Source of the DNA: Methanolinea sp.
GTDB lineage: Archaea; Halobacteriota; Methanomicrobia; Methanomicrobiales; Methanospirillaceae
Length of the DNA stretch: 45,866 nucleotides
Assembly (NCBI GenBank): GCA_030019395.1
Contig: JASEES010000048.1
Location: forward strand, 1 to 45,866
Direction: 5' to 3'
Every line of letters starts with the position of its first letter. Positions within the stretch are counted from its first letter, which is position 1. The position numbers and the translations under genes are program-made. Under the pieces are notes generated by a model. The model ran no database searches. It saw only the letters and a list, made by a program, of their open reading frames with translations, and was not told the DNA's origin. Shown piece by piece: positions 1-43,153 of this stretch.

Positions 1-1650
1 TTTATTGACGTACAGGATCTCTCCTTTGGGGCCCGTTTCGAAGATAACCTGCGGGAGAAGACCCGCAAGGTCCCGGAATTTCTGTTCGCTCCTGGTTAAG
101 TCCTCCTCCATGTGTTTCTTCTCGGTGATGTCCCGTCCGACCGACTGGTATTCGATGATATTCCCGTCGGAATCAAAGATGGCCCTGTCGTTCCACTGGA
201 CCCAGCGCTCCTGACCATCAGGTGTAATAACCCGGTGCTCGATGGTTGCAGTCGGGTTCTCCGGCGAGAGCGACGAGAAATGCCTGCGAATGAGGTCATC
301 ATCCTCCGGCGGGACTTTGGGCCAGGCTTTGTGCCCAAGGATATCGGGCCATGGCAGACCGAAGTACCTGCAGTACGCTTCGTTTACGAAGACGTGCGTC
401 CCGTCAGGGAGGAACCGGGCAATCAGTTCCGTCTGGTTCTCGACAACTGCCCGGTAATTCTCCCCCTTCCTGACAAGTTCGAGTTCGGTCTGCTGGAGCT
501 GCCGGATCATTCCCCGGAGTGAAGCAACAAGGGAAGTGACACTCCGGGTTATTCTTTCGAACTCGGTCGTCCTGGGCGGGGCGAGAGGGTACTCGAGGTC
601 GCCCCGGGAGATGGTATCGATGTCATGGACCATCTGTGCAATGGGGCGCGTGAGGCGGCGGGAGAGAACGATTGCCAAAACGATAGAGAACGTTACGGCA
701 AGGAGGGCAACCAGGGCGTGGTTGAGGAGAAGTGTTGTGAGCTGGTCCTTCAACTCGGACTGGTCGTACACGAGCTCGATGATCCAGCTCACATCCGAAA
801 CATAACTATGGTTGGTGAGATCGACAAAGAGGTATCTCGTCAGGGTGTTGTTATTCGGATCAACGATCTCGAGCGGCTTCCTTTCGCTGATGACCTGCCG
901 GACGACGGGTGGAGTGCTTTGCGCAGATGAGGTATTATTCCCGATAACCCTTCCCAGTGTATCGTAAGCCCTGTAGCTGACAACATTCGGGTTATTGAGG
1001 GCAATGGCCCTGAGGGAATCCTGGTACCTGATATGGGGTCTCTCTTCAAGCGCTTTGCCCGAGAGCCCGAGTTCGAGGATGTACCGGTGGTCCGGCGTTG
1101 GCATGTAGGCATATTTGACCAGTTTGCCTGACGTTGCGTGATGAACAATCCGGTCAGGGAAAAAACCGTCTCTCTGTAAGAGGTCTTTGAGGTAGTTATA
1201 CGCATAGGGCCACTGGCTGAAGTCGAGGCCAAGGTCAGAAGGATCAGTGGTGTATTCGACCATGATGGACTCGTTGATGATGTAGAGGTCCATCTCGTTG
1301 CCGAGCGCCTCTTTCAGGGCATCGAGGTCCATCTTCGCGGGATCATTGCCTGATCGCTCGTACTCCTTTTGAAAAAGGGAAAATGCGTTCTTCATCTCGT
1401 TGTTGAGCGAGCTGTCGTACATTTCGTACGCGGAGTCGATCACGATAATGGTCCCGGCAATGTTGGCCTCCGTCATTTCCTCCATGGCGCGGGCATTCTT
1501 CTGGTAGGTCTCCTCTGCCTGCCGGTAATCAAAATAGGTGATACCGATGGCAAGGACGAGGATGAGGACGACCATCCAGAAAAGCAGCTGGTGGGAGAAT
1601 GAATACGAGGGACCCGGCCTCCTGCCGCTCTCTTTTTCGGGGTCTACCAT
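1..1650 (-). CDS. Membrane sensor protein with Cache-like, HAMP and PAS domains (3' end outside window)
   Basis: The frame is open from ATG at 1650 to the left edge, about 550 residues, without a stop, so the C-terminus is missing. A first membrane helix lies at about residues 21-41 (LLFWMVVLILVLAIGITYF). An extracytoplasmic region of about 260 residues of Cache type follows, then a second helix near residue 315. A HAMP segment comes next (SRRLTRPIAQMVHDIDTISR). One complete PAS/PAC domain ends in EYQSVGRDITEKK, and a second PAS begins (KFRDLAGLLPQVIFETGPKG). This is the architecture of methanogen sensor histidine kinases, where an external ligand signals through HAMP to PAS and kinase modules. 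Whether a kinase domain follows cannot be seen. It is divergent from the dynamin-like gene. Confidence 0.9.
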   Translation of the reverse strand, partial: MVDPEKESGRRPGPSYSFSHQLLFWMVVLILVLAIGITYFDYRQAEETYQKNARAMEEMTEANIAGTIIVIDSAYEMYDSSLNNEMKNAFSLFQKEYERSGNDPAKMDLDALKEALGNEMDLYIINESIMVEYTTDPSDLGLDFSQWPYAYNYLKDLLQRDGFFPDRIVHHATSGKLVKYAYMPTPDHRYILELGLSGKALEERPHIRYQDSLRAIALNNPNVVSYRAYDTLGRVIGNNTSSAQSTPPVVRQVISERKPLEIVDPNNNTLTRYLFVDLTNHSYVSDVSWIIELVYDQSELKDQLTTLLLNHALVALLAVTFSIVLAIVLSRRLTRPIAQMVHDIDTISRGDLEYPLAPPRTTEFERITRSVTSLVASLRGMIRQLQQTELELVRKGENYRAVVENQTELIARFLPDGTHVFVNEAYCRYFGLPWPDILGHKAWPKVPPEDDDLIRRHFSSLSPENPTATIEHRVITPDGQERWVQWNDRAIFDSDGNIIEYQSVGRDITEKKHMEEDLTRSEQKFRDLAGLLPQVIFETGPKGEILYVNK

Positions 1651-32831: not shown

Positions 32832-33744
32832 GGTAATTGTGTAAGATCCACCACTAACCTTTCGTTAGGAAAGGAACAATGGATCGTATGGATTTTCGGG
32901 AGATCGGGAGGCTCATATCCGATGATAGGATTGCCCTCGAATATCTCTGGAAGAGACGAGGATCCGCAACATGTCACTTCTGTGATTCCTCGGATTTCTA
33001 TTTCATTGGGAGAAATAGGGTAAGATGTAAGGAGTGTCGGAAGGACCTCTGGCCACTTCAGGGAACGAGGTTCTCATCTCTCCGAATCGCACCCTCTCAG
33101 TGGCTCTCCCTCATCAAATTATTCGAATTATCAGTGTCGGCCAGAAAAGCCTCGCAGGATATCCATCTGAGCTACAAGACGACATTGAGAGCGTACGATA
33201 TTTTAAGGAGGGTTCTCGTGGAAGAGCTTGCCCGGACAGATGCAATCCTGAAAGGAGAGCTAGAGGCGGATGAAGCATATTTCGGAGGTAAGAGGAAAGG
33301 AAAGAGAGGGAGAGGAGCCGGGGGTAAAACTATCGTGTTTGGGATCCTGGAACGAGGAGGAAAGGTTTCAGTAAGCATCGTCCAGGATGTATCAGCAGAG
33401 AGCCTTATGACAGAAACAGTGAAGAGAGTGAGGAGAGGCTCAATCGTGTATACCGATAAATGGAGAGGATATGATTCTCTCGTGTTCTGTGGATATAAGC
33501 ATCTCAACATCGACCATCGCTATAAGTTCAAACAGGGAAAGGTCTACATCAACGGGATTGAAGGATTCTGGGCGTTTGCGAAAGAGCGATTGATTAAGCA
33601 TCACGGAATCTCCAGACAGAAGTTCCTCTTCTACATCAAGGAGATGGAGTGGCGATATAACCACAGAGGGAAAGATTTATTTGAGTACTTAATCGATCTG
33701 ATGCTTGACGAAACAGCCTTGGTGGTGGAAGTTACCTAATCACC
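32832..33744 (+). mobile_element. IS1595-type insertion sequence, intact
   Basis: About 913 bases bounded by imperfect inverted repeats: left GGTAATTGTGTAAGATCCAC, right (reverse complement) GGTGATTAGGTAACTTCCAC. It carries one complete transposase gene. I see no exact 8-base target duplication. Its insertion truncates the DUF2206 gene immediately to the right, whose frame is open up to the IS border. Confidence 0.75.
32879..33739 (+). CDS. IS1595-family (ISXO2-like) transposase
   Basis: 286 residues. An N-terminal zinc ribbon (CHFCDSSDFYFIGRNRVRCKECRKDLWPL) precedes the ISXO2-like DDE domain: LEADEAYFGGKRKGKRGRGAGGK (first Asp), SIVYTDKWRGYDSL (second Asp) and KVYINGIEGFWAFAKERLIKHHGI, with the N/E catalytic position. 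The full length and intact motifs indicate an active or recently active enzyme. A second, broken copy is at 35,265-36,064. Confidence 0.92.
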   Translation: MDRMDFREIGRLISDDRIALEYLWKRRGSATCHFCDSSDFYFIGRNRVRCKECRKDLWPLQGTRFSSLRIAPSQWLSLIKLFELSVSARKASQDIHLSYKTTLRAYDILRRVLVEELARTDAILKGELEADEAYFGGKRKGKRGRGAGGKTIVFGILERGGKVSVSIVQDVSAESLMTETVKRVRRGSIVYTDKWRGYDSLVFCGYKHLNIDHRYKFKQGKVYINGIEGFWAFAKERLIKHHGISRQKFLFYIKEMEWRYNHRGKDLFEYLIDLMLDETALVVEVT

Positions 33745-33810: not shown

Positions 33811-35163
33811 ATGAGCTTTTATAATTTTTTCACTGTAAATAACCGTGTAAACATTGCACTATTATTTTTCGCGGGTATCATTTATCTGCTATTTCTGGAC
33901 AATTATGATATGTCAAAAAAGACCCCCATTTTAGTGCTTTTTGTAGCCGCGTTAGCAGTATCACATTACTCAACTGCATTTATTACTGCAATACTTATTT
34001 CATTGACATTTTTAACGTATCTATTCTTCAATCACATTAATAAAATACAGAAATACAAAAATAATATAATAAATAATAATATTAATTATATGTCACTAAG
34101 AAAAGATAAATTTATTAATATAAATTTTATTATACTTTTATGGATTATTATTTTATCTTGGTTTATATATATTGTTATAAATCCATTTATTGGCGCTATT
34201 AATTTCCTAGAACAAACGATTACAAAAATTCCTCTCTTCGATGGAGGAGGGGGACCCAGGAGTAGTGTGTTATTGATAGCTACTGGAATAAATATTTATG
34301 GGGGTATTATCGGACAAATTGAATTATTACTAACCTATTTTATCATCTCAATTATCTGTTTAGGTGTTGGATTAACTCCAATTCATTACATTAAAAGTTT
34401 AAAAAACAATGAAGAATTTTCGTATTTTATTCATATTAATAAATTTATTATGCCTAAGGAATTCTATCTATTATGTTTTTTATCTGTATTTATTCTATTT
34501 TCATTGACAATACTTCCATATGCATCATTAGCATATGATATTACCCGGGTTTATTTTCAATTCTTGTATATATTATGTCCTTTTGTAGTGATAGGCCTAT
34601 TTAAAATATGTTCTATTGGAAATTATTTATATATTAAAATTAAAAACTTTATATTTAATATTTCTATTAAATCAATAAAAAATACTATCAAAGTTGAAAC
34701 TCGTTATCACATAGTTTCATTTATGTTATTGATTATTTTGATAACATATTTTCTCTGCACAACAGGATTATTATATCAAATGGGGAGTTATCACAGAACA
34801 TTGATTTTAAATAATGATGGTAAAGAGTACGAGGATTTAATTATCACACAACAAGAGTATTATGCCTCTAATTGGATAAGTTTATACAGTACTTACGGAA
34901 GCAGGACCATTTATACTGACTATTTAGGACGTTTTAGAGTTATAATTTGTGGATTGATTGAACCTTATGTGTCAATAGTAATCAATAAAATACCTGAAAA
35001 GGATAAATTACATGAAAATGAATATATTTTTTTAAGATCCTATAACATTGAAAAAAAGAAAATCGGTACATATACAAAATCAAGTAGTTACTATGATATT
35101 CCACTATTAAAATATTCATCAACAGTTTACTTTAATGGCAGATCTAAAATTTTAACAACTTAA
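33811..35163 (+). CDS. DUF2206 multispanning membrane protein, 5'-truncated by IS insertion
   Basis: 450 residues from ATG 33,811, but the frame is open and protein-like upstream to the IS border (TIIYYINKRYLPKKFAFFAVFYF). The true start is therefore lost. About ten membrane helices are followed by a C-terminal soluble part (NNDGKEYEDLIITQQEYYASNWISLYSTYG..IYTDYLGRFR). The segment LVLFVAALAVSHYSTAFITAI is typical of DUF2206 proteins, which accompany surface-polysaccharide gene clusters and normally run to 700 residues or more. Base composition is extremely AT-rich compared with the core genes, a sign of transfer. Probably non-functional or partly functional. Confidence 0.7.
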   Translation: MSFYNFFTVNNRVNIALLFFAGIIYLLFLDNYDMSKKTPILVLFVAALAVSHYSTAFITAILISLTFLTYLFFNHINKIQKYKNNIINNNINYMSLRKDKFININFIILLWIIILSWFIYIVINPFIGAINFLEQTITKIPLFDGGGGPRSSVLLIATGINIYGGIIGQIELLLTYFIISIICLGVGLTPIHYIKSLKNNEEFSYFIHINKFIMPKEFYLLCFLSVFILFSLTILPYASLAYDITRVYFQFLYILCPFVVIGLFKICSIGNYLYIKIKNFIFNISIKSIKNTIKVETRYHIVSFMLLIILITYFLCTTGLLYQMGSYHRTLILNNDGKEYEDLIITQQEYYASNWISLYSTYGSRTIYTDYLGRFRVIICGLIEPYVSIVINKIPEKDKLHENEYIFLRSYNIEKKKIGTYTKSSSYYDIPLLKYSSTVYFNGRSKILTT

Positions 35164-35216
35164 TGATTCTTCCTAATAATATTTCCGATATTCTGCAGGT
35201 CGTGATTCAAAAATAA

Positions 35217-36253
35217 TAGGTGATTAGGTAACATCGCCCCCTAACCTTTAGTTAGGAAGGGAATATGGATCTTATGGATTTCCGGGAGATCGGCAAGCTC
35301 GTTTCTGAAGACCGATTCTCTCTAGAATATTTTTGGAAGAAACGGCGGAATACCGTTTGTCCATCTTGTTCATCCTCTAAATTCTACTATCGCCAGAAGT
35401 GGAGAGTACGGTGTAAGGGATGTAAGAAGGACTACTGGCCACTTCAAGGACTGGGTTTGCTCTCCTCCGAATATCGCCATCACAATGGCTCTCTCTCGTG
35501 AAATTATTCGAGCTCTTTACTTCACCCAGGAAAGCTTCCCACGAGGTCCACCCTAACTACAAAACCACATTGCGAGCCTATGATATCCTTCGCCGGGTTC
35601 TCGTTGAAGAACTTACCAAGACAGATGACATTCTGAAGGGAGAACTGGAATTGGAAGCAGATGAAGTCTACTTCGGCGGGAAAAGGAAAGGAAAGCATAG
35701 AAGAGGTGCCGGTGGCAAGAGCATTGTCTATGGGATCCTGGAACGGGGAGGAAGGGTCTCGGTGAGTATTTTTCAGGATGTCTCCGCCAAGAGTCTTATG
35801 ACCGAGACGGTGAAGAGGGTGAAGAGAGGCTCCATCGTGTACACAGACAAATGGCGGGGATATGACTCTCTCATGTTCTGTGGCTACAAGCATCTCAATA
35901 TTGATCATCGTTATAAATTCAAGCAGGTGAAGGTCTTTATCAATGGAATTGAAGGATTCTGGTCCTTTGCGAAGCAGCGATTACTCAAATATCATGGAGT
36001 TGATGCCCAAAAATTCCTGCTCTATCTCAAAGAGTTGGAGTTTCGGTATAATCATCGCGACTGAGATCTTTTTGATGACCTCGTTTAAGTATTAGTTGGA
36101 TATAGTCACGTGGCTCATACTGAGTAATTACCTAGTTTTTATACCAAGGAGATGGAGTGGTGATACAACAATCGGGGGAAAATTTATTTGAAGTCTTAGT
36201 GGATTTGATGTTACAATAAAGGGTGTTAGGGGTCGATGTTACCTAATCACCTA
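35217..36253 (+). mobile_element. IS1595-type insertion sequence, degenerate and mosaic
   Basis: It is bounded by nearly perfect 29-base inverted repeats (28 of 29 positions): the left end starts TAGGTGATTAGGTAACATCG and the right end mirrors it at 36,225-36,253. Inside are a frameshifted transposase and, after it, a second partial copy of the transposase C-terminal coding sequence (36,141-36,219). An IS-end-like TAATTACCTAG lies between them (about 36,125). The element is thus a recombinant of two related insertion sequences. No clear target duplication. Confidence 0.75.
35265..36064 (+). pseudogene. Frameshifted IS1595-family transposase
   Basis: Homologous to the intact transposase at 32,879-33,739. 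The first frame (MDLMDFREIGKLVSEDRFSLEYFW..CPSC..CKGCKKDYWPLQG) loses one base near 35,455. The second frame resumes with LLRISPSQWLSLVKLFELFTSPRKASHEV and continues through LEADEVYFGGKRKGKHRRGAGGK and IVYTDKWRGYDSL to FRYNHRD, then stops early. The C-terminal end is lost and partly duplicated downstream. Confidence 0.85.
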
Positions 36254-36292
36254 ATTTTATGAGATAATCTTCCCAAAATCTGGTGTGGTTTC

Positions 36293-37468
36293 ATGAAAAT
36301 CCGATTTTTTTTATTTGGTGGAAATAATCAAATGGAAGGTGTTTTCAAAAAAGAATTGGCCAAAATTACTTTGCTCAAAAAGTTAGGTTTAGATTGTGAA
36401 GTGACTTTTTTTGCAAATCAGAACAAATATATTTTTAATAGTGATATAAAAATAAAAATAATAAAAATTGATGAAAATTTAAATCTCATTCAAAGAATCA
36501 GAAGAGCCCGGTATATAGCTCATGTCATAGGTAATCAAATAAAAAATCTTGATTATCCAGACTGTGTTCTGTTCCGTTATCCTTACCATATTTTATATTA
36601 CTCGAAAAATATTCTGAAAAAGAAAAGAAGATGTAAAGTTGTTTTCGAACATAACACAAAAGAAAGTGATGAATTTAAATTGTTAACTGGTTGTTTTTCT
36701 CAAATCTTTTTACAAGAAATTTTTCTTGGTCGCTTCATACGGTCCCAGGCCGACGCCATCGTCGGCGTCACCAACGAAATCACGCAGTACCAGTTAAAGC
36801 GTTGTCATAACCCCGACAAACCGCACATCACGATTGGAAACGGCATTGATGTTGCCAGTGTCCCTTTGCGCCACCATCCTCCCCTGATAACCACGGAACT
36901 CCACCTTATCTTCGTTGCCAATGTCAGCCGCTGGCATGGCATCGACAGGCTCATCCGGGGCCTTGCGACAAATGATGGAAAGACCGCTATTATTCTCCAC
37001 GTTGCAGGTGAGGGGGCTGAGTTACCCAACCTCAAGAAATTGGTGAATGACTATGGACTCGCAAAAAAAGTCATCTTTCATGGTTTCGTGACCGGCCAGT
37101 CTCTCGATGAACTCTTTAACGCCTGTCACATTGCCGTCGGGAGCCTCGGTCTCCACCGTGTTGGATTGAAGGAATCTTCTACATTGAAAGTCCGGGAATA
37201 CTGTGCCCGTGGTATCCCCTGGATTATTGCATGTCAGGATCCTGATTTCCCTGACGATTTCCCGTATATTCATCGCATTCACGCCGATGAATCCCCGGTC
37301 AATTGTGAAGAATTACTGGAATTCGCGAAAAGAGTCTGTAAAGATCCCGAACATCCACAAAAAATGCGGGATTATGCCATGGATCATCTGGACTGGTCGA
37401 TAAAGATGAAGAAACTCAAGGAGTTCCTTGAAAAACTGGTCGGTGAATCACCTTCTGATCTTGTATAG
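36293..37468 (+). CDS. Family 4 glycosyltransferase of mosaic origin
   Basis: 391 residues with a GT-B glycosyltransferase architecture. The N-terminal domain ends near IFLGRFIRSQADAIVGVTNEI. The C-terminal donor-binding domain has TIGNGIDVASVPL, LIFVANVSRWHGIDRLIRGL, ILHVAGEGAELPNLKKL, VIFHGFVTGQSLDELFNACHIAVGSLGLHR and KESSTLKVREYCARGIPWI (the EX7E-type region). Codons 1 to about 147 are very AT-rich; from about base 36,735 onward the sequence is GC-rich like the core genome. The frame is continuous through the change, so the product may be active. Likely role: surface glycan or glycoprotein synthesis. Confidence 0.85.
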   Translation: MKIRFFLFGGNNQMEGVFKKELAKITLLKKLGLDCEVTFFANQNKYIFNSDIKIKIIKIDENLNLIQRIRRARYIAHVIGNQIKNLDYPDCVLFRYPYHILYYSKNILKKKRRCKVVFEHNTKESDEFKLLTGCFSQIFLQEIFLGRFIRSQADAIVGVTNEITQYQLKRCHNPDKPHITIGNGIDVASVPLRHHPPLITTELHLIFVANVSRWHGIDRLIRGLATNDGKTAIILHVAGEGAELPNLKKLVNDYGLAKKVIFHGFVTGQSLDELFNACHIAVGSLGLHRVGLKESSTLKVREYCARGIPWIIACQDPDFPDDFPYIHRIHADESPVNCEELLEFAKRVCKDPEHPQKMRDYAMDHLDWSIKMKKLKEFLEKLVGESPSDLV

Positions 37469-37471
37469 AGA

Positions 37472-37888
37472 TGCTACCGCCGCCCCATCCTCTCCCTCGG
37501 CTCTACTGACGGGGGCGTTGTCAAAGAACTGCTTGACCAGACACATGCAGGCGTGCATTGCTCAAACGAGGCGGAACTACGCGAATTCCTGCTCAAGTCA
37601 TACCGCGAATACAAGGAGCGGGGGGCAGTACAGTATCACGGGATCGGGGAGGAGATCATGAAGTACAGCCACGTGGAGATGGCGAGGAAGTTTGCCGAAG
37701 TGCTGGACGCAGTCACAGCCGGTGCCACGCCGATGCAGGCATCACACCCTGCCTGGCCACCCCGGAAAAAAACCCGGGAGAGGATCTGTACCCCCACTCC
37801 CCCGCGAGAGACCCCATTCCGGACGTTGTACGGCGAAATACGCGCCGTATCGCCTGAGAATCACGACCTCCCCCCACCGCAACCTTGA
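37472..37888 (+). pseudogene. C-terminal remnant of another glycosyltransferase
   Basis: In the same frame as the preceding gene, right after its TAG, the sequence reads CYRRPILSLGSTDGGVVKELLDQTHAGVHCSNEAELREFLLKSYREYKERGAVQYHG and then EEIMKYSHVEMARKFAEVLD. This is the typical C-terminus of a GT4 enzyme (donor-loop plus final helices). The N-terminal two thirds are absent. The tail after about 37,720 is unrelated filler. It suggests a deletion that removed most of a second glycosyltransferase. Confidence 0.65.
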
Positions 37889-37915
37889 TAAGGGGTCACT
37901 TTCAGACTGCCCGGT

Positions 37916-37997
37916 CAATATTTAAAAACTTCCCCGCTCCATCCTCTGTCATGTGACCCCTCGGGAATTGAAGCCTTTTTCACGAAGAGGTCACATG
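37916..37997 (+). promoter_or_regulatory. TATA box and inverted repeat at the head of the replicon-like block
   Basis: AATATTTAAAAAC (37,917-37,929) is a good TATA box and predicts transcription start near 37,949. There begins an inverted repeat: CATGTGACCCCT (37,950-37,961) and AGAGGTCACATG (37,986-37,997), one mismatch in 12. A further half-site, GGGGTCAC, is at 37,892-37,899. A repressor binding here would control the downstream operon; an RNA hairpin in the leader is the alternative. Confidence 0.5.
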
Positions 37998-38000
37998 GTG

Positions 38001-38228
38001 ATGAAAAAATGTTTTCAAGACCATCGGGAACAGCCACGTGCATGTATGCAGGTGGCTCCGGACGCGGTCCCCGGCTTTTTGGCCGGTCCGCTTCCCGCAC
38101 AGAACGAAGAGACACGTCCCGCAGAGGAGACGGCACGGACAGGAGAGCGGGCTCCCCCCACTATGGCATTGTGTCGGGTTGCAATAGGGAGAGGGAACCC
38201 ATCATATCCTGCACCCGGGGAACAATGA
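38001..38228 (+). CDS. Possible small hypothetical protein
   Basis: 75 codons from ATG 38,001 (or 37,995), the first open frame after the promoter described at 37,916-37,997. The sequence (MKKCFQDHREQPRACMQVAP) then becomes Pro/Ala/Arg-rich. The ribosome-binding site is weak (AGAGG). No family recognised; it may be a leader or non-coding. Confidence 0.3.
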   Translation: MKKCFQDHREQPRACMQVAPDAVPGFLAGPLPAQNEETRPAEETARTGERAPPTMALCRVAIGRGNPSYPAPGEQ

Positions 38229-38268
38229 ATGTTCCGTCACCGGCACGCGACTGCACGGAGGCCTCCTG

Positions 38269-38415
38269 ATGGCACACGCGTGCCCCCACCTCTCCCGCGG
38301 AAAGGAGGGCAGGTGGCTGACCCTCGCGTGCAGGTCCCCCGGTCCCTGCCCGGACCGGGCGTGCCCGGCCAACCCCCGTTTCCAGGAGCCGGATCCGGAT
38401 GATGCCCGCCAGTAA
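38269..38415 (+). CDS. Small Cys-rich protein (48 residues)
   Basis: It starts MAHACPHLSRGKEGRWLTLACRSPGPCPDRACPANPRF, preceded by GGAGG at 7 bases. Four cysteines, one with the pattern CxxxxxCxxxC, suggest a small metal-binding protein. The next gene starts inside its end (overlap 17 bases), so this is the head of a tightly packed operon. Too short for ordinary gene callers. Confidence 0.6.
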   Translation: MAHACPHLSRGKEGRWLTLACRSPGPCPDRACPANPRFQEPDPDDARQ

Positions 38416-38788
38416 CCACAGGGTATCGCCGCGGCGAAAGAGGCGCTCCCGGTGCCGTGCCGCGGAATACGAGGCCCGCAGGATCCTCCGGGAGATGGAC
38501 TTCCCGGTCGTGGTCCGGTCCACGGACCCGGCGTTTCCCGCAAGCCTGATCGCCTGGTCCGCAACGGGCAGTGTCCACGTCTTCTCCGTGGTCTCGACCC
38601 GCCGGACCGTTGCAGGCGCCCCGGATGCCGCATCCCTCTTTGCCGGCGAGATCGCGGACCTGCGGGGCATCCCCCGGGCGACCGGCGGGTCGGTCAACCT
38701 CTGGATCCGCTCCGGCCACACAGCCTGGAAGCTGTACCGCGTCTTTCCCGGCGGGATAGCCGAGGCGGGGGTGCCGGATGTGGCGTGA
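38399..38788 (+). CDS. Hypothetical basic protein, possibly nuclease-like
   Basis: 129 residues with a strongly basic start (SPRRKRRSRCRAAEYEARRILREMDFPVVVRSTDPAFPASLIAWSATGSVHVFSVVSTRR). The layout, a helix with YE followed by FPVVVRSTDPAFPASLIAW and a beta-strand, recalls Holliday-resolvase or PD-(D/E)xK nucleases, but the catalytic Asp and ExK are not recognisable. The family assignment is therefore only a suggestion. It overlaps its neighbour upstream and precedes a second Cys-rich gene. Confidence 0.6.
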   Translation: MMPASNHRVSPRRKRRSRCRAAEYEARRILREMDFPVVVRSTDPAFPASLIAWSATGSVHVFSVVSTRRTVAGAPDAASLFAGEIADLRGIPRATGGSVNLWIRSGHTAWKLYRVFPGGIAEAGVPDVA

Positions 38789-38804
38789 GGGAGAGGACGG
38801 CACC

Positions 38805-38969
38805 ATGTCGGAGCGCAAGGTCTGCCCCTTCATGTCGGACCCCCGGAGGATCGTCCTCTGCCAGGGAAAAAATTGTGCCGCCGCCTGCCCTGCCCGGGCC
38901 GGGGACGGGTCGCTCTGGACGTGCGGGCTTGTCGACGGCTGCGCCGGCAGGGAAGGGGGGATGCCGTGA
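38805..38969 (+). CDS. Small Cys-rich protein (54 residues)
   Basis: It reads MSERKVCPFMSDPRRIVLCQGKNCAAACPARAGDGSLWTCGLVDGCAG. Six cysteines, including CxxxxCxxxC, suggest zinc or iron-sulfur binding. It starts at ATG 38,805 behind GGGAGAGG; ATG 38,778 inside the previous gene is the alternative. Its stop overlaps the next ATG (ATGATG context), so translation is coupled. Confidence 0.6.
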   Translation: MSERKVCPFMSDPRRIVLCQGKNCAAACPARAGDGSLWTCGLVDGCAGREGGMP

Positions 38970-39187
38970 TGCCGCTTGTCCGGATCACGTCCACTCACGA
39001 CCCGTTCCTCCTCACCTGCCCGGTCTGCGGCTGCCGCTCGTGGGACCGGCAGGGGCAGGAGTTGTCCTGCCGGGCCTGTGCTGTCCGGGTGACGCTTGCC
39101 GATGACCCCGGGACGGACCGGGTCGTCCTTGTGATCGAAGGCCCCACCCTCTCCCCCGGAGGACCCCCATGGCAGGCGGGGAGATAG
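38969..39187 (+). CDS. Small zinc-ribbon protein (72 residues)
   Basis: MPLVRITSTHDPFLLTCPVCGCRSWDRQGQELSCRACAVRVTL holds two CxxC knuckles 15-20 residues apart, a classical zinc ribbon. A short acidic strand region and a Pro-rich tail follow. The tail is encoded within the 19-base overlap with the replication gene. It may assist the replication protein, a guess from adjacency. Confidence 0.65.
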   Translation: MPLVRITSTHDPFLLTCPVCGCRSWDRQGQELSCRACAVRVTLADDPGTDRVVLVIEGPTLSPGGPPWQAGR

Positions 39188-42174
39188 CCCGTGCCCTCTC
39201 CCTCCTCTTTTCCCCCGGATCGGTCGTCGAGCTCCGGGCGATCACGGAGGAGGGAATGGCATCCGGGTACTTCGACGACCCGGTTGCGCTCCGGGAAGCG
39301 GCCGGGCCGCTGGATGCAGCCGGCACGACCGGCATCTACGTCACGCTGAACGAGGTGAACCCGGCACTCCTCTCGCGGCGGGCAAACCGCGTCAGGATGC
39401 GGCTCTCGAAAAAGGACGCGACCACGGCAGACGGCGACATCATCCGCCGCCGCTGGTTCCCCCTCGACATCGACCCCGTCCGGCCCTCGGGCATCTCCTC
39501 GACCGATGCCGAACACCGGGCAGCACTCGACCGGGCAGGCAGGATCGCCGCGTTTCTCGCGGAACGCGGGTGGCCCGCACCCATCCTCGCGGACTCCGGG
39601 AACGGGGCACACCTGCTCTACCGGATCGACCTCCCCAACGATGACGCGTCCCGGGACCTCGTGAAGAGGGCTCTTGCAGCCCTGGACACCCTGTTCTCGG
39701 ACGGCACCTGCACCGTGGACACCTCAAACGCCAACGCGGCCCGCATCTGGAAGCTCTACGGCACGACCTCGCGCAAAGGCGACCACACGCCGGACCGCCC
39801 CCACCGGAAGGCACGGATCCTCGACGCCCCGGACCACGCCGGGGTCGCCGGCCGCGGCCTCCTCGAAGCCCTCGCGGCAACTCTCCCGGCCCCGCCGGCC
39901 CGAAAAGTCAGCCCGGCCCGCGGGACCGCGATCGACCTCCGGTCCTGGCTCTCCGGGCACGGCATCGGGATTGCGGCAGAAAAGCCCTACGCGGGCGGGA
40001 CACTCTTTGTCCTGGAGGAGTGCCCCTTCTCGGATGCCCACCGGGACGGGGCGTTTGCCATCCAGTTCGGGAACGGGGCCATCCATGCCGGGTGCCACCA
40101 CGCCTCCTGCGGGGGTGGATCGCAGCGCTGGAAGGAACTCCGGGCAAAGTTCGGGCGGGGAGAAGGCCATGCCCCCGCCGTACCCCCGGCAGAACCCGTG
40201 CACGGGGACCCGGCTCCTCCTGCCGATCTCCCCGGCCACGCGGAGGCGCTCTCCCTCCTGCAGCACGGCGACCCGAAGGAGGCGATGCTCCGGGCCTTCG
40301 CGCTGGACCACGAGGGCGACGAGGTGGTGGCCGAGTGCCTCGTCATGTCGCTTGCCTCCCGGTCGGTCGCAAACACCAACGGCCTGCACGTCTCCGTGAC
40401 AGGCGAGAGCGGCAAGGGCAAGAGCCACGCCTTTGCGACCATGCTCCGCCAGGTCCCGGCCCGCTTCCGGCTGGAAGGCGCAATGAGCAACAAGGCCCTC
40501 TTCTACATCGAGGGCATGCAGCCCGGCAGCGTGATCGTGCTCGACGACCGGGCCCTCTCCGAGGAGGTCCAGGAGATCCTCAAGGCGGCGACCACGTGCT
40601 TTTCCGATCCCATCGGGTACCGGACGGTCACCAGGGACCGCAAGATGCAGGTCTGCACCATCCCGGAACGGTGCGTCTGGTGGGTCTCGAAGGTCGAGGG
40701 TGCCGGGGACGACCAGGTCCAGAACAGGATGCTCACCTGCTGGATCGATGACTCGGAGGAGCAGGACGCCCGCGTGCTGGCCCGGATCCTCGCCCGCGAC
40801 GAGGGTGTGCCGGGCCCGGGGGGAGGGGAACGGCCTGATGTCCTCGTCTGCCGGGCCATGTGGGAGATCATCGGGCAGCAGCGGTTCCACGTGGTTGTCC
40901 CCTTCGCGACCCGGATCCGGTTCCAGGCGGCGGCGAACCGGAGAAACCCGGAGATGCTGCTCGACCTCGTCAAGGCAAACACCGTCCTCCGGTTCATGCA
41001 GCGGGAACGGCAGCAGCACGGTCCCGTCTCCTGCCTGATCGCCACCATCAGGGACTTTTGGGAAGCGGCCAGGCTCTACTCCCTCCTTTCCGGGACTGCC
41101 GGCGGGCAGGAGACGAAGCTGACGAGGCGGGAGGCCGGGCTCCTCCGGGCCATCGTGCAGGGAGGGTGGCCGGAGTTCACGGTCCCGATGCTCCAGAAAG
41201 TGACCGGCTGGTCCAACGGGAACATCCACAAGATCATCCACGGGTACGTCTCGCGGGGCACGGCGCACTCCGGCCTGCTCGAGAAGTGCCCGGCGATTGC
41301 CTACTGCGACCGGACGGTGGCGACCGCCGAGGATGCCGGCGGTGTCTCGATGCAGCGGAGGATGCGGGCCTACACCTTTGACCGCGAGCTCTTCGCCGCC
41401 TGGTCTGCAGGCGGGGCGGTCTGGCTCGATGGCGGTGATGACGGGATGTCCCCTTCCCCGCCTTCCGCAGACTTCCGCAGTCCCGCGGCCTGTGCGGAAG
41501 TGTCAGGAAACGATGAAGAAGGCCCCGATTCTCAAAATAATGAATATAATAAAAGTACATATATATGTACACAGGATCACTTCCACACATGCACGGGATC
41601 ATGGGAGCCGGCAGAAGACACTGCGTGTGCACCTGCACGTGAGAGGTGTCCCGGAAGTGCGGAAGTGAAAAATTCAAAAACCGATGAACCGCCTCCGATC
41701 CCTGCCAATACGCCGGAAAATGCCCCGATTCCACTTCCCCAACCCCTTCCGCCGCCCGGGCACTGCGGAAGTCCGGGAGATCCGGCCGGCAGCCCCCCCG
41801 TCCGGATCGACGCCCGTGACTACAAGCCGCTCGTGCCACCCGCAAGGAGACCGTGCTCCGTGTGCGGTGCCCCGTGGTCGCTCTACGTCGAGAAGCTGAC
41901 CGGCGACCGGCTGCAGCGGAAGGACCGGGACGCCCGCCGGCTCTGCAGGGCCTGCTATGACCGGGCGAAAGCGTACGTCCAGGAGCACGCGGCGATCCTG
42001 CCGGGGACGTGTGACCCTTCCCGGATGGAGCCGCTTGCGTCCGGGGTGGGCCGGTGCACCGTGTGCTCGCTCGACCCGGCTTCCTACATCGACAGGACGA
42101 CCAGGACGAAGGTGTGCGAGTCCTGTTACCGGCGGCTCTCCCGGGCGACAGGTTGCGGGGAGGCAAAGGCATGA
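39169..42174 (+). CDS. Primase-polymerase/helicase replication protein with C-terminal zinc modules
   Basis: 1001 residues. Residues 1-240 form an archaeo-eukaryotic primase-like domain: WFPLDID with Asp100 and Asp102, SGNGAHLLY (His148), and VDTSNANAARIWKLYGT with Asp184. A zinc motif follows (C285PF..H291..GC309HHASC314), as in PriCT/D5 N-terminal regions. An AAA+/SF3-like helicase has Walker A TGESGKGKSH (411-420) and Walker B SVIVLDD (454-460). A winged helix is near residue 680. Residues about 755-870 are a low-complexity linker with different base composition. Two C-terminal zinc modules end the protein (CSVCGAPW..CRACYD; CTVCSLD..CESCYR). Such fusions replicate plasmids and viruses. 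The ATG follows GGAGGA. It is the centre of the integrated replicon-like block. Confidence 0.85.
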   Translation: MAGGEIARALSLLFSPGSVVELRAITEEGMASGYFDDPVALREAAGPLDAAGTTGIYVTLNEVNPALLSRRANRVRMRLSKKDATTADGDIIRRRWFPLDIDPVRPSGISSTDAEHRAALDRAGRIAAFLAERGWPAPILADSGNGAHLLYRIDLPNDDASRDLVKRALAALDTLFSDGTCTVDTSNANAARIWKLYGTTSRKGDHTPDRPHRKARILDAPDHAGVAGRGLLEALAATLPAPPARKVSPARGTAIDLRSWLSGHGIGIAAEKPYAGGTLFVLEECPFSDAHRDGAFAIQFGNGAIHAGCHHASCGGGSQRWKELRAKFGRGEGHAPAVPPAEPVHGDPAPPADLPGHAEALSLLQHGDPKEAMLRAFALDHEGDEVVAECLVMSLASRSVANTNGLHVSVTGESGKGKSHAFATMLRQVPARFRLEGAMSNKALFYIEGMQPGSVIVLDDRALSEEVQEILKAATTCFSDPIGYRTVTRDRKMQVCTIPERCVWWVSKVEGAGDDQVQNRMLTCWIDDSEEQDARVLARILARDEGVPGPGGGERPDVLVCRAMWEIIGQQRFHVVVPFATRIRFQAAANRRNPEMLLDLVKANTVLRFMQRERQQHGPVSCLIATIRDFWEAARLYSLLSGTAGGQETKLTRREAGLLRAIVQGGWPEFTVPMLQKVTGWSNGNIHKIIHGYVSRGTAHSGLLEKCPAIAYCDRTVATAEDAGGVSMQRRMRAYTFDRELFAAWSAGGAVWLDGGDDGMSPSPPSADFRSPAACAEVSGNDEEGPDSQNNEYNKSTYICTQDHFHTCTGSWEPAEDTACAPARERCPGSAEVKNSKTDEPPPIPANTPENAPIPLPQPLPPPGHCGSPGDPAGSPPVRIDARDYKPLVPPARRPCSVCGAPWSLYVEKLTGDRLQRKDRDARRLCRACYDRAKAYVQEHAAILPGTCDPSRMEPLASGVGRCTVCSLDPASYIDRTTRTKVCESCYRRLSRATGCGEAKA
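41462..41772. other. Candidate replication origin inside the primase-helicase gene
   Basis: TGCGGAAG occurs five times in about 310 bases: minus strand at 41,462-41,469 and 41,472-41,479, plus strand at 41,493, 41,658 and 41,764. A variant, CCGGAAGTG, is at 41,651. Between them lies a 42-base AT-rich stretch (41,529-41,570) ending in the perfect palindrome GTACATATATATGTAC (41,555-41,570), in a gene that is otherwise GC-rich. The copies fall in both orientations and different reading frames, so protein repetition does not explain them. Iterons flanking an AT-rich unwinding region is a standard origin layout. Confidence 0.5.
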
Positions 42175-42584
42175 TCGCCCTTTCCCGGGAGGCTCGTTCC
42201 CCGGATCAGTCCCCTGCAGGGGCGGGGGCACGGATCTTCCCTGCGACGGAGGGCCCGCTGCCGGAAACGGGGGCAGACCCGGTGGGGGGTTCCTGTTCGC
42301 CGCCGGACGGGCTGGCCCCGCCCATCCTCCTTCCCGGCCGGGGAGGCCGGCTCCGGCACACGGTGACCGCCACCCGATCCGTTGCGATGGACGGGGATGA
42401 TTCGCCGGCCTGCCCGCCGGAAAGGACGCATTCCCCCCGCCACCGGCAGGAACTCCCCGGAAAGCAACCGGCATGCCGGCGAGATACGCGGGTGTCCGGG
42501 GGGAGAGGAAGAGGGGACGGCAGCCGTGCACGACGGGAGACCGCCGTGCAACCGGGCCGGGAGGAACGGCCATGCCGGGGCTGA
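42171..42584 (+). CDS. Hypothetical low-complexity protein coupled to the replication gene
   Basis: 137 codons from ATG 42,171, which overlaps the replication gene's stop (ATGA). The product is rich in Pro, Gly and Arg (PPILLPGRGGRLRHT, RRDTRVSGGRGRGDGSRARRE), probably disordered. Coupled start and operon position support it; composition argues for caution. No family recognised. Confidence 0.4.
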   Translation: MIALSREARSPDQSPAGAGARIFPATEGPLPETGADPVGGSCSPPDGLAPPILLPGRGGRLRHTVTATRSVAMDGDDSPACPPERTHSPRHRQELPGKQPACRRDTRVSGGRGRGDGSRARRETAVQPGREERPCRG

Positions 42585-43153
42585 TCCGGGCGGTCCGGGA
42601 CCTGCTCACCCGGCTCCTGTCCCGGAGAAGGGTGTCCGGGGACACCACGGTTCCCGCAAAGGACACCACGGGATGCCCTCCTGCCACCCCACCAGAAGGC
42701 ACTGCCCCGGGGGAAGACCGGCCGTGCTCCGGGGAGTGCCTCCGGCCGGTGGTTCCCGCAAAACCCGTTCCCCTTCCCCCGGAGGGACAACCGGGGCTCT
42801 CCCGGTGGACGGTCCGGGAATCCGAAAGACCGGTGTTCGGGAAGGTGGGGCGGATCTTCCTCGAGGGCGATGCCCTGGTGATCCGCACCGACCGCGACCC
42901 CCGCTGTTTCTCCCTCCCGATCGACGGTGCAGCCGCCGTTCTCGCGGGTGATTCCCGTGCCATCCTCCTCCCGACCGGGGATGCGGTGGGAACCGCACGG
43001 CTCTCGGCATCCGGCCGGGCGGTGAACTTTCTCATCGGGCCGGTCCTCTATACCACGCCGCGGGCACGGATAACCGACGTGCTGGAGGGGAGGGCGAGGA
43101 AAGCGGCGGTGTTCGCGGGAGAGGCCCCTCCGGGGGACCGTGCAGGACAATGA
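42572..43153 (+). CDS. Hypothetical protein with beta-rich C-terminal domain
   Basis: 193 residues from ATG 42,572, behind GGGAGGA. A basic amphipathic N-terminus (MPGLIRAVRDLLTRLLSRRR) and a Pro-rich linker precede a compact beta-rich domain (VRESERPVFGKVGRIFLEGDALVIRTDRDPRCFSLPIDGAAAVLAGDSRAILL..GRAVNFLIGPVLYTTP). It overlaps the gene before by 13 bases. Unknown function; specific to this type of element as far as can be judged. Confidence 0.6.
   Translation: MPGLIRAVRDLLTRLLSRRRVSGDTTVPAKDTTGCPPATPPEGTAPGEDRPCSGECLRPVVPAKPVPLPPEGQPGLSRWTVRESERPVFGKVGRIFLEGDALVIRTDRDPRCFSLPIDGAAAVLAGDSRAILLPTGDAVGTARLSASGRAVNFLIGPVLYTTPRARITDVLEGRARKAAVFAGEAPPGDRAGQ

Follow-up and report, generated by a model that had tools for sequence, protein, structure and literature searches.

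A mid-frame GC switch in a Methanolinea glycosyltransferase gene and an apparently recurrent GT4 mosaic in Methanomicrobiales

A glycosyltransferase gene on a Methanolinea contig (the whole stretch of 45,866 nt that was analysed is called the window here) looks like one old example of an apparently recurrent GT4 mosaic in Methanomicrobiales. It is probably an intact GT4-type enzyme made of two modules with different histories, that is, an old two-module mosaic of a kind that would have been formed by repeated recombination of 5' modules onto a conserved 3' module. We infer that the composition switch of the window gene itself originated in such recombination, and the recombination mechanism is likewise a reconstruction from the comparisons laid out below, in which a parallel GT4 family and a homologue from another family of the order (in genome G117) carry most of the weight.

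The reading frame (36293-37468, plus strand) encodes 391 aa and is open along its entire length, and so runs uninterrupted over the junction, as a sequence-only reading of this DNA had stated. That reading had also placed a sharp mid-frame switch in base composition near 36,735, which is borne out by a maximum-likelihood GC change point at 36,727 (the support interval, 36,720-36,739 on the plus strand, is what we call the junction). GC rises there from 25.5% to 49.7%, with a log-likelihood gain of 34.2 (500 codon shuffles gave 9.3 at most), and no further strong change point was found inside either half of the gene. In a set of 108 ORFs of at least 250 aa, drawn from the window and from ten related loci, the gain has a median of 2.7 and a 90th percentile of 7.8, and this gene ranks third. 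Profiled along the gene, GC and GC3 both step, GC3 going from 20-21% to 54% at codon 146, and part of the composition step sits in codon positions 1 and 2, that is, in amino-acid composition. On one side lies an AT-rich 5' module (36293-36736, plus strand; residues 1-148; GC 26%, GC3 21%), which comprises most of the N-terminal domain, and on the other a GC-richer 3' module (36737-37465, plus strand; residues 149-391; GC 50%, GC3 54%), which comprises the last strand-helix of that domain, the hinge and the donor-binding C-terminal domain (PF00534), and is 48-82% identical over the order. The two halves had further been likened to their surroundings, which fits the 5' module, as AT-rich as the neighbouring DUF2206 membrane-protein gene (33811-35163, plus strand; PF09971, E 1.9e-26; GC ~25%), but not the 3' module, whose ~50% GC is above that of its AT-rich neighbours and below that of the core genes on the left (57-62%).

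The protein resembles GT-B enzymes of CAZy family GT4 (PF00534/PF13439) in its PF00534 match above cutoff (residues 200-362, 52.3 bits against 26.4, E 6e-14), its E-x7-E motif (E294-SSTLKVR-E302) and its two-domain length, and it resembles the GT4 enzymes of surface-glycan clusters in that its relatives sit in glycan clusters. It differs from them in an N-terminal domain that stays under the Pfam cutoff (PF13439, residues 35-188, 18.5 bits against 28.5), in the REYC-RG-P and LDW--K motifs that are invariant in its family, and in the first Glu of E-x7-E, which is Gln in several members (G117, G058, G187 and G228), while E302 is invariant. Sequence matches to solved GT4 structures lie mostly over the C-terminal part, and a structure prediction, which had only a two-sequence alignment as input, gave a pLDDT of 42 and a pTM of 0.32, too low for the model to be of use. 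In GT-B enzymes the acceptor is bound by the N-terminal and the donor by the C-terminal domain, and domain-swapped enzymes are active (PMC10937113); by analogy, the 5' module is taken to be the putative acceptor-binding part. The seam, at residue ~147 and before ADAIVGVTNEI, lies ~40 residues N-terminal of the domain boundary, since PF13439 ends at residue 188 and PF00534 begins at residue 200. The proposal that an acceptor-binding domain had been joined to a donor-binding one is therefore nearly right, except that the exchanged part would be the N-terminal domain minus its last strand-helix unit.

A second GT4 family (family B; the window gene belongs to family A) was met at L043 4855-5970 (G117), L112 (G025), L114 (G119) and L118 (G157), with a seam before or inside ERIIVYSP. 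As far as comparison of sequences goes, it decides the general question in favour of a recurrent N/C mosaic. The G117 member, in the same cluster, has a stronger step than the window gene (GC3 26 to 73%), the largest steps in the family reach GC3 17% to 69%, and GC3 rises by 0.17 to 0.52 in 18 of 29 members (group B1), always from an AT-rich 5' to a GC-rich 3' part; a fall of 0.15 was seen in none of the 29. Close relatives within B1 have C parts that are 74-87% identical, with dS from 0.35, and N parts that are mostly 20-34% identical, with randomised synonymous sites (a few pairs have common N modules, at 43-60% identity). The G157/G160 pair shows what this means at single loci, with a C part at 87% and dS 0.35 (SecD dS 0.40) and an N part at 29% and dS 2.3. 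In six B1 pairs, conserved residues have a codon identity of 0.66-0.81 in the C parts versus 0.21-0.38 in the N parts, and trees of the two parts reject each other (AU 4e-51 and 5e-6). The differing synonymous divergence indicates that the two halves of B1 genes differ in age. The C part is moreover younger than a core gene between families of the order (G119/G183, dS 0.66 versus 2.0 for SecD), and about the same age as SecD within a single genus.

The same picture emerges from DNA. Often the 3' module, ~620-680 bp, is all that two B1 loci have in common (for example -16..637, 21..617 and -16..664 nt), with unrelated, mostly AT-richer DNA flanking it on either side. Averaged over 13 B1 loci, DNA identity goes up at the seam from background (~0.34-0.45) to 0.73 in about 60 nt. 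Six B2 genes served as controls: their N and C parts are about equally diverged (94/92, 89/83 and 82/84% identity half by half, with similar dS), they have no step, and a B2 control is collinear across 4.8 kb. The size of the step and N/C decoupling are correlated over family B (Spearman -0.57, p 0.001, a value that is indicative only, the members being related). Copies of the C half only were considered as silent cassettes, an idea that was dropped, as the fragments of family B (in G117:C63 and in G029:C27) stop at contig ends and so are no evidence for it.

Within family A, identity is 38-80% between C parts and mostly 20-35% between N parts, and the 5' module of the window gene is 74% identical to that of G117 and 22-32% identical to those of the remaining members. 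Separate trees of the halves, which had been suggested as a check, are in significant conflict (AU p = 4.5e-6 and 0.016; 13 sequences), yet the window gene and its G117 homologue are sisters in both. Where the N module is shared, the N distance is 1.4 (window/G117) or 1.7 (G058/G069) times the C distance, and this factor reaches 7.9 for window/G058 and 10.7 for G187/G188; DNA similarity between the window gene and G058 is confined to positions +13..+703 of the 3' module. One member, G189, combines a family A C part (45-62%) with an unrelated N part (8-19%, and no match to the N profile). Synonymous sites are saturated in every family A pair except window/G117, so that the halves are not separable by this means, and several members have little or no composition step. 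What speaks for a mosaic in family A is the conflict of trees, at 20-35% identity, together with G189, the GC step and the analogy with family B. The possibility that the N module is a domain straying through other GT families was discarded, because its profile matches occur only alongside the 3' module (15/15). Elsewhere, G073 has (L045, 8391-9125, minus strand) a family A 3' module that lacks an N part and is followed by the same GT fragment as in the window, a truncated relic.

That fragment bears on a different reading, in which the seam is a by-product of glycan-cluster exchange, a crossover in or just behind the 3' part having replaced everything upstream without selection on the enzyme. 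The stop codon (37466-37468) is followed by a short spacer (37469-37476, plus strand) and then by the remnant of a third GT4 gene (37478-37744, plus strand), of which the final ~90 codons are left, recognised by homology to its intact parent in G029 (432 aa, 92% identity; PF13439, the GT4 N-terminal domain, E 1.7e-12), and 84% identical to the intact gene in G117:C63. In G117:C36 (94% over 31 aa) and in G073 (76%) the remnant likewise follows immediately on the homologous 3' module. From 37,477 to 43,119, over about 5.6-5.7 kb, the window is 85.5% identical to the same-genus contig G029:C27; since this similarity starts 9 nt past the gene, the foreign glycan DNA has its right-hand limit within the GT fragment, and the DNA leftward to the insertion sequences is all AT-rich, as a replacement of everything upstream would have it. 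Against this, the edge is at 37,477 and not at 36,727, the link between N and C parts is common to G117, and the family B 3' module has unrelated DNA at both ends, which together make this reading unlikely. Three further features of the surroundings are worth recording. An IS1595-type transposase gene (PF12762) is present as one intact and one decayed copy (32879-33739 and 35206-36064), the second with frame breaks and 73% identical DNA, and the two flank the DUF2206 gene. The stretch from 38.2 to 44 kb has 60-74% GC and contains a 1001-aa ORF (39169-42174) that has no Pfam match. Another GT4 gene of the window genome (L072, G000:C27, 64-1122, minus strand) shows a reverse step close to its 3' end (GC 45% to 22%, gain 13).

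It could also be that there was no recombination at all, and that diversifying selection drives fast change in the N-terminal domain, which would be AT-rich through relaxed or biased codon use, next to a constrained C-terminal part. The N-terminal domains of GT4 enzymes are in general less conserved, part of the step is at codon positions 1 and 2, and N parts are mutually homologous within each family, A and B (in family B with leave-one-out E-values of 1e-26 to 1e-47, G189 being the exception in family A); this homology implies that a fast-evolving domain accounts for part of the divergence. As an account of the whole it is decidedly unlikely, because synonymous sites are split too in B1 (dS 0.35 versus 2.3 or saturated, codon identity 0.8 versus 0.2-0.4), because, in the B2 genes of this same family, the two halves have equal rates of evolution, and because of the conflicting trees and the unrelated N part of G189.

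The old mosaic that we favour is best dated by the G117 homologue, whose protein is 78% identical overall to that of the window (74% in the N part, 80-82% in the C part) and whose DNA is 81% identical along the whole gene. Its composition step is at the same nucleotide (GC3 23 to 58%), and dS from the window gene is equal for the two parts (N 0.677, C 0.682), from which it follows that the mosaic predates the window/G117 split. With dN/dS ~0.2 in both halves, the gene as a whole is under purifying selection. SecD is only 62% identical between the same two genomes (dS 1.6), and the 78% of the glycosyltransferase thus implies transfer of the gene between families; shared DNA begins at 36273 and runs at least as far as 37572, at which point the G117 contig stops, and it includes ~100 bp past the gene, with part of the GT4 remnant. 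Of the 232 genomes searched in the order, 18, from six families, have relatives of the C part, a patchy distribution as expected for a transferred gene, and there was no match in the 12 other genomes of the genus that were searched. Judged from these sequences, the window gene is an inherited, horizontally transferred unit and not a fresh in-frame fusion. One observation counts against our reading, namely that the composition step has been retained through a dS of 0.68 without amelioration. As in the window gene, the change point lies -9 nt from the module start in G117, G228 and G119, and +13/+26 nt from it in G058/G187.

The sequence-only reading had proposed in-frame recombination of a foreign acceptor-binding domain with a resident donor-binding one, which is taken here to mean a recent event in this lineage. 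The sharp step is what such an event would leave, and at the level of the family the idea survives, given the conflict of N and C trees in A and B and the dS split in B1. As a recent event in this genome it is refuted by G117, which is closest for both halves, with equal dS and the same step, and it also has against it the absence of a match in the 12 other genomes of the genus and of a second copy of the gene in the window genome (a draft of 50 contigs), so that its probability is very low. A join of two genes in metagenome assembly, conceivable in such a draft, can practically be dismissed, as G117, an independent draft, carries the same join with 81% DNA identity gene-wide, and the family B switch also occurs in genomes that consist of one contig, G159 and G195 among them.

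How might such genes arise? In the old-mosaic reading, the 3' module would be a conserved, GC-richer lineage that is widespread in Methanomicrobiales, and the 5' modules would be highly divergent, often AT-rich forms of one acceptor-binding domain. Homologous recombination from the conserved start of the 3' module could swap the 5' part or, in the reverse direction, convert the 3' module; different 5' modules would have been joined repeatedly at the seam, the GC3 jump being a relic of this. For the window gene, the joining would be old, earlier than its divergence from the G117 copy; once complete, the mosaic would have travelled as a unit between two families, with the fragment of another GT gene behind it. 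The donor sugar would be kept and the acceptor altered, which would vary surface glycans; such an acceptor change is plausible by analogy, being predicted from the roles of the two GT-B domains and from the activity of artificial swaps (PMC10937113). Much more tentatively, one might picture a standing glycan-diversification system in Methanomicrobiales, with a few GC-rich 3' GT4 platforms, homogenised between families, and a pool of old AT-rich acceptor-domain alleles, joined at one fixed seam, donors being constant and acceptors changing.

If true, the implications would be several, that is, (i) nature would exchange GT-B domains at a reproducible position, as enzyme engineers do deliberately, (ii) a GC3 jump together with N/C tree conflict would be a simple sequence signature for finding such enzymes, (iii) ready-made enzyme sets, in which a single donor part is combined with many different acceptor parts, would be at hand and (iv) archaea would have a way of changing their surface, against viruses for example. 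The literature searched, an incomplete sample with few subscription journals, contained no description of such a pattern in methanogens. Conserved cores with exchangeable specificity parts are known from type I restriction hsdS and from Rhs proteins. The GT4 genes resemble these in joining a conserved core to variable specificity parts, and differ from them in that a non-exhaustive look revealed no dedicated recombinase, silent cassettes or repeats, and in that the sequences are unrelated. Recombination in surface-glycan loci is a feature shared with bacterial capsule loci, as described in the abstract of PMC5850285, and with archaeal glycosylation loci in Haloferax, where a single within-gene event, in aglD, was described and recombination is mostly within-clade (PMC5867893). 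The difference, within the same bounds for the capsule study, is that here there is one fixed within-gene seam and a ~650 bp 3' module among unrelated flanks. The closest parallel in design is provided by engineered domain-swapped GT-B chimeras (PMC10937113), in which the N-terminal part of one enzyme is likewise placed on the C-terminal part of another, but the GT4 mosaics described here are natural and repeated, and their seam precedes the final strand of the N-terminal domain instead of falling on the domain boundary.
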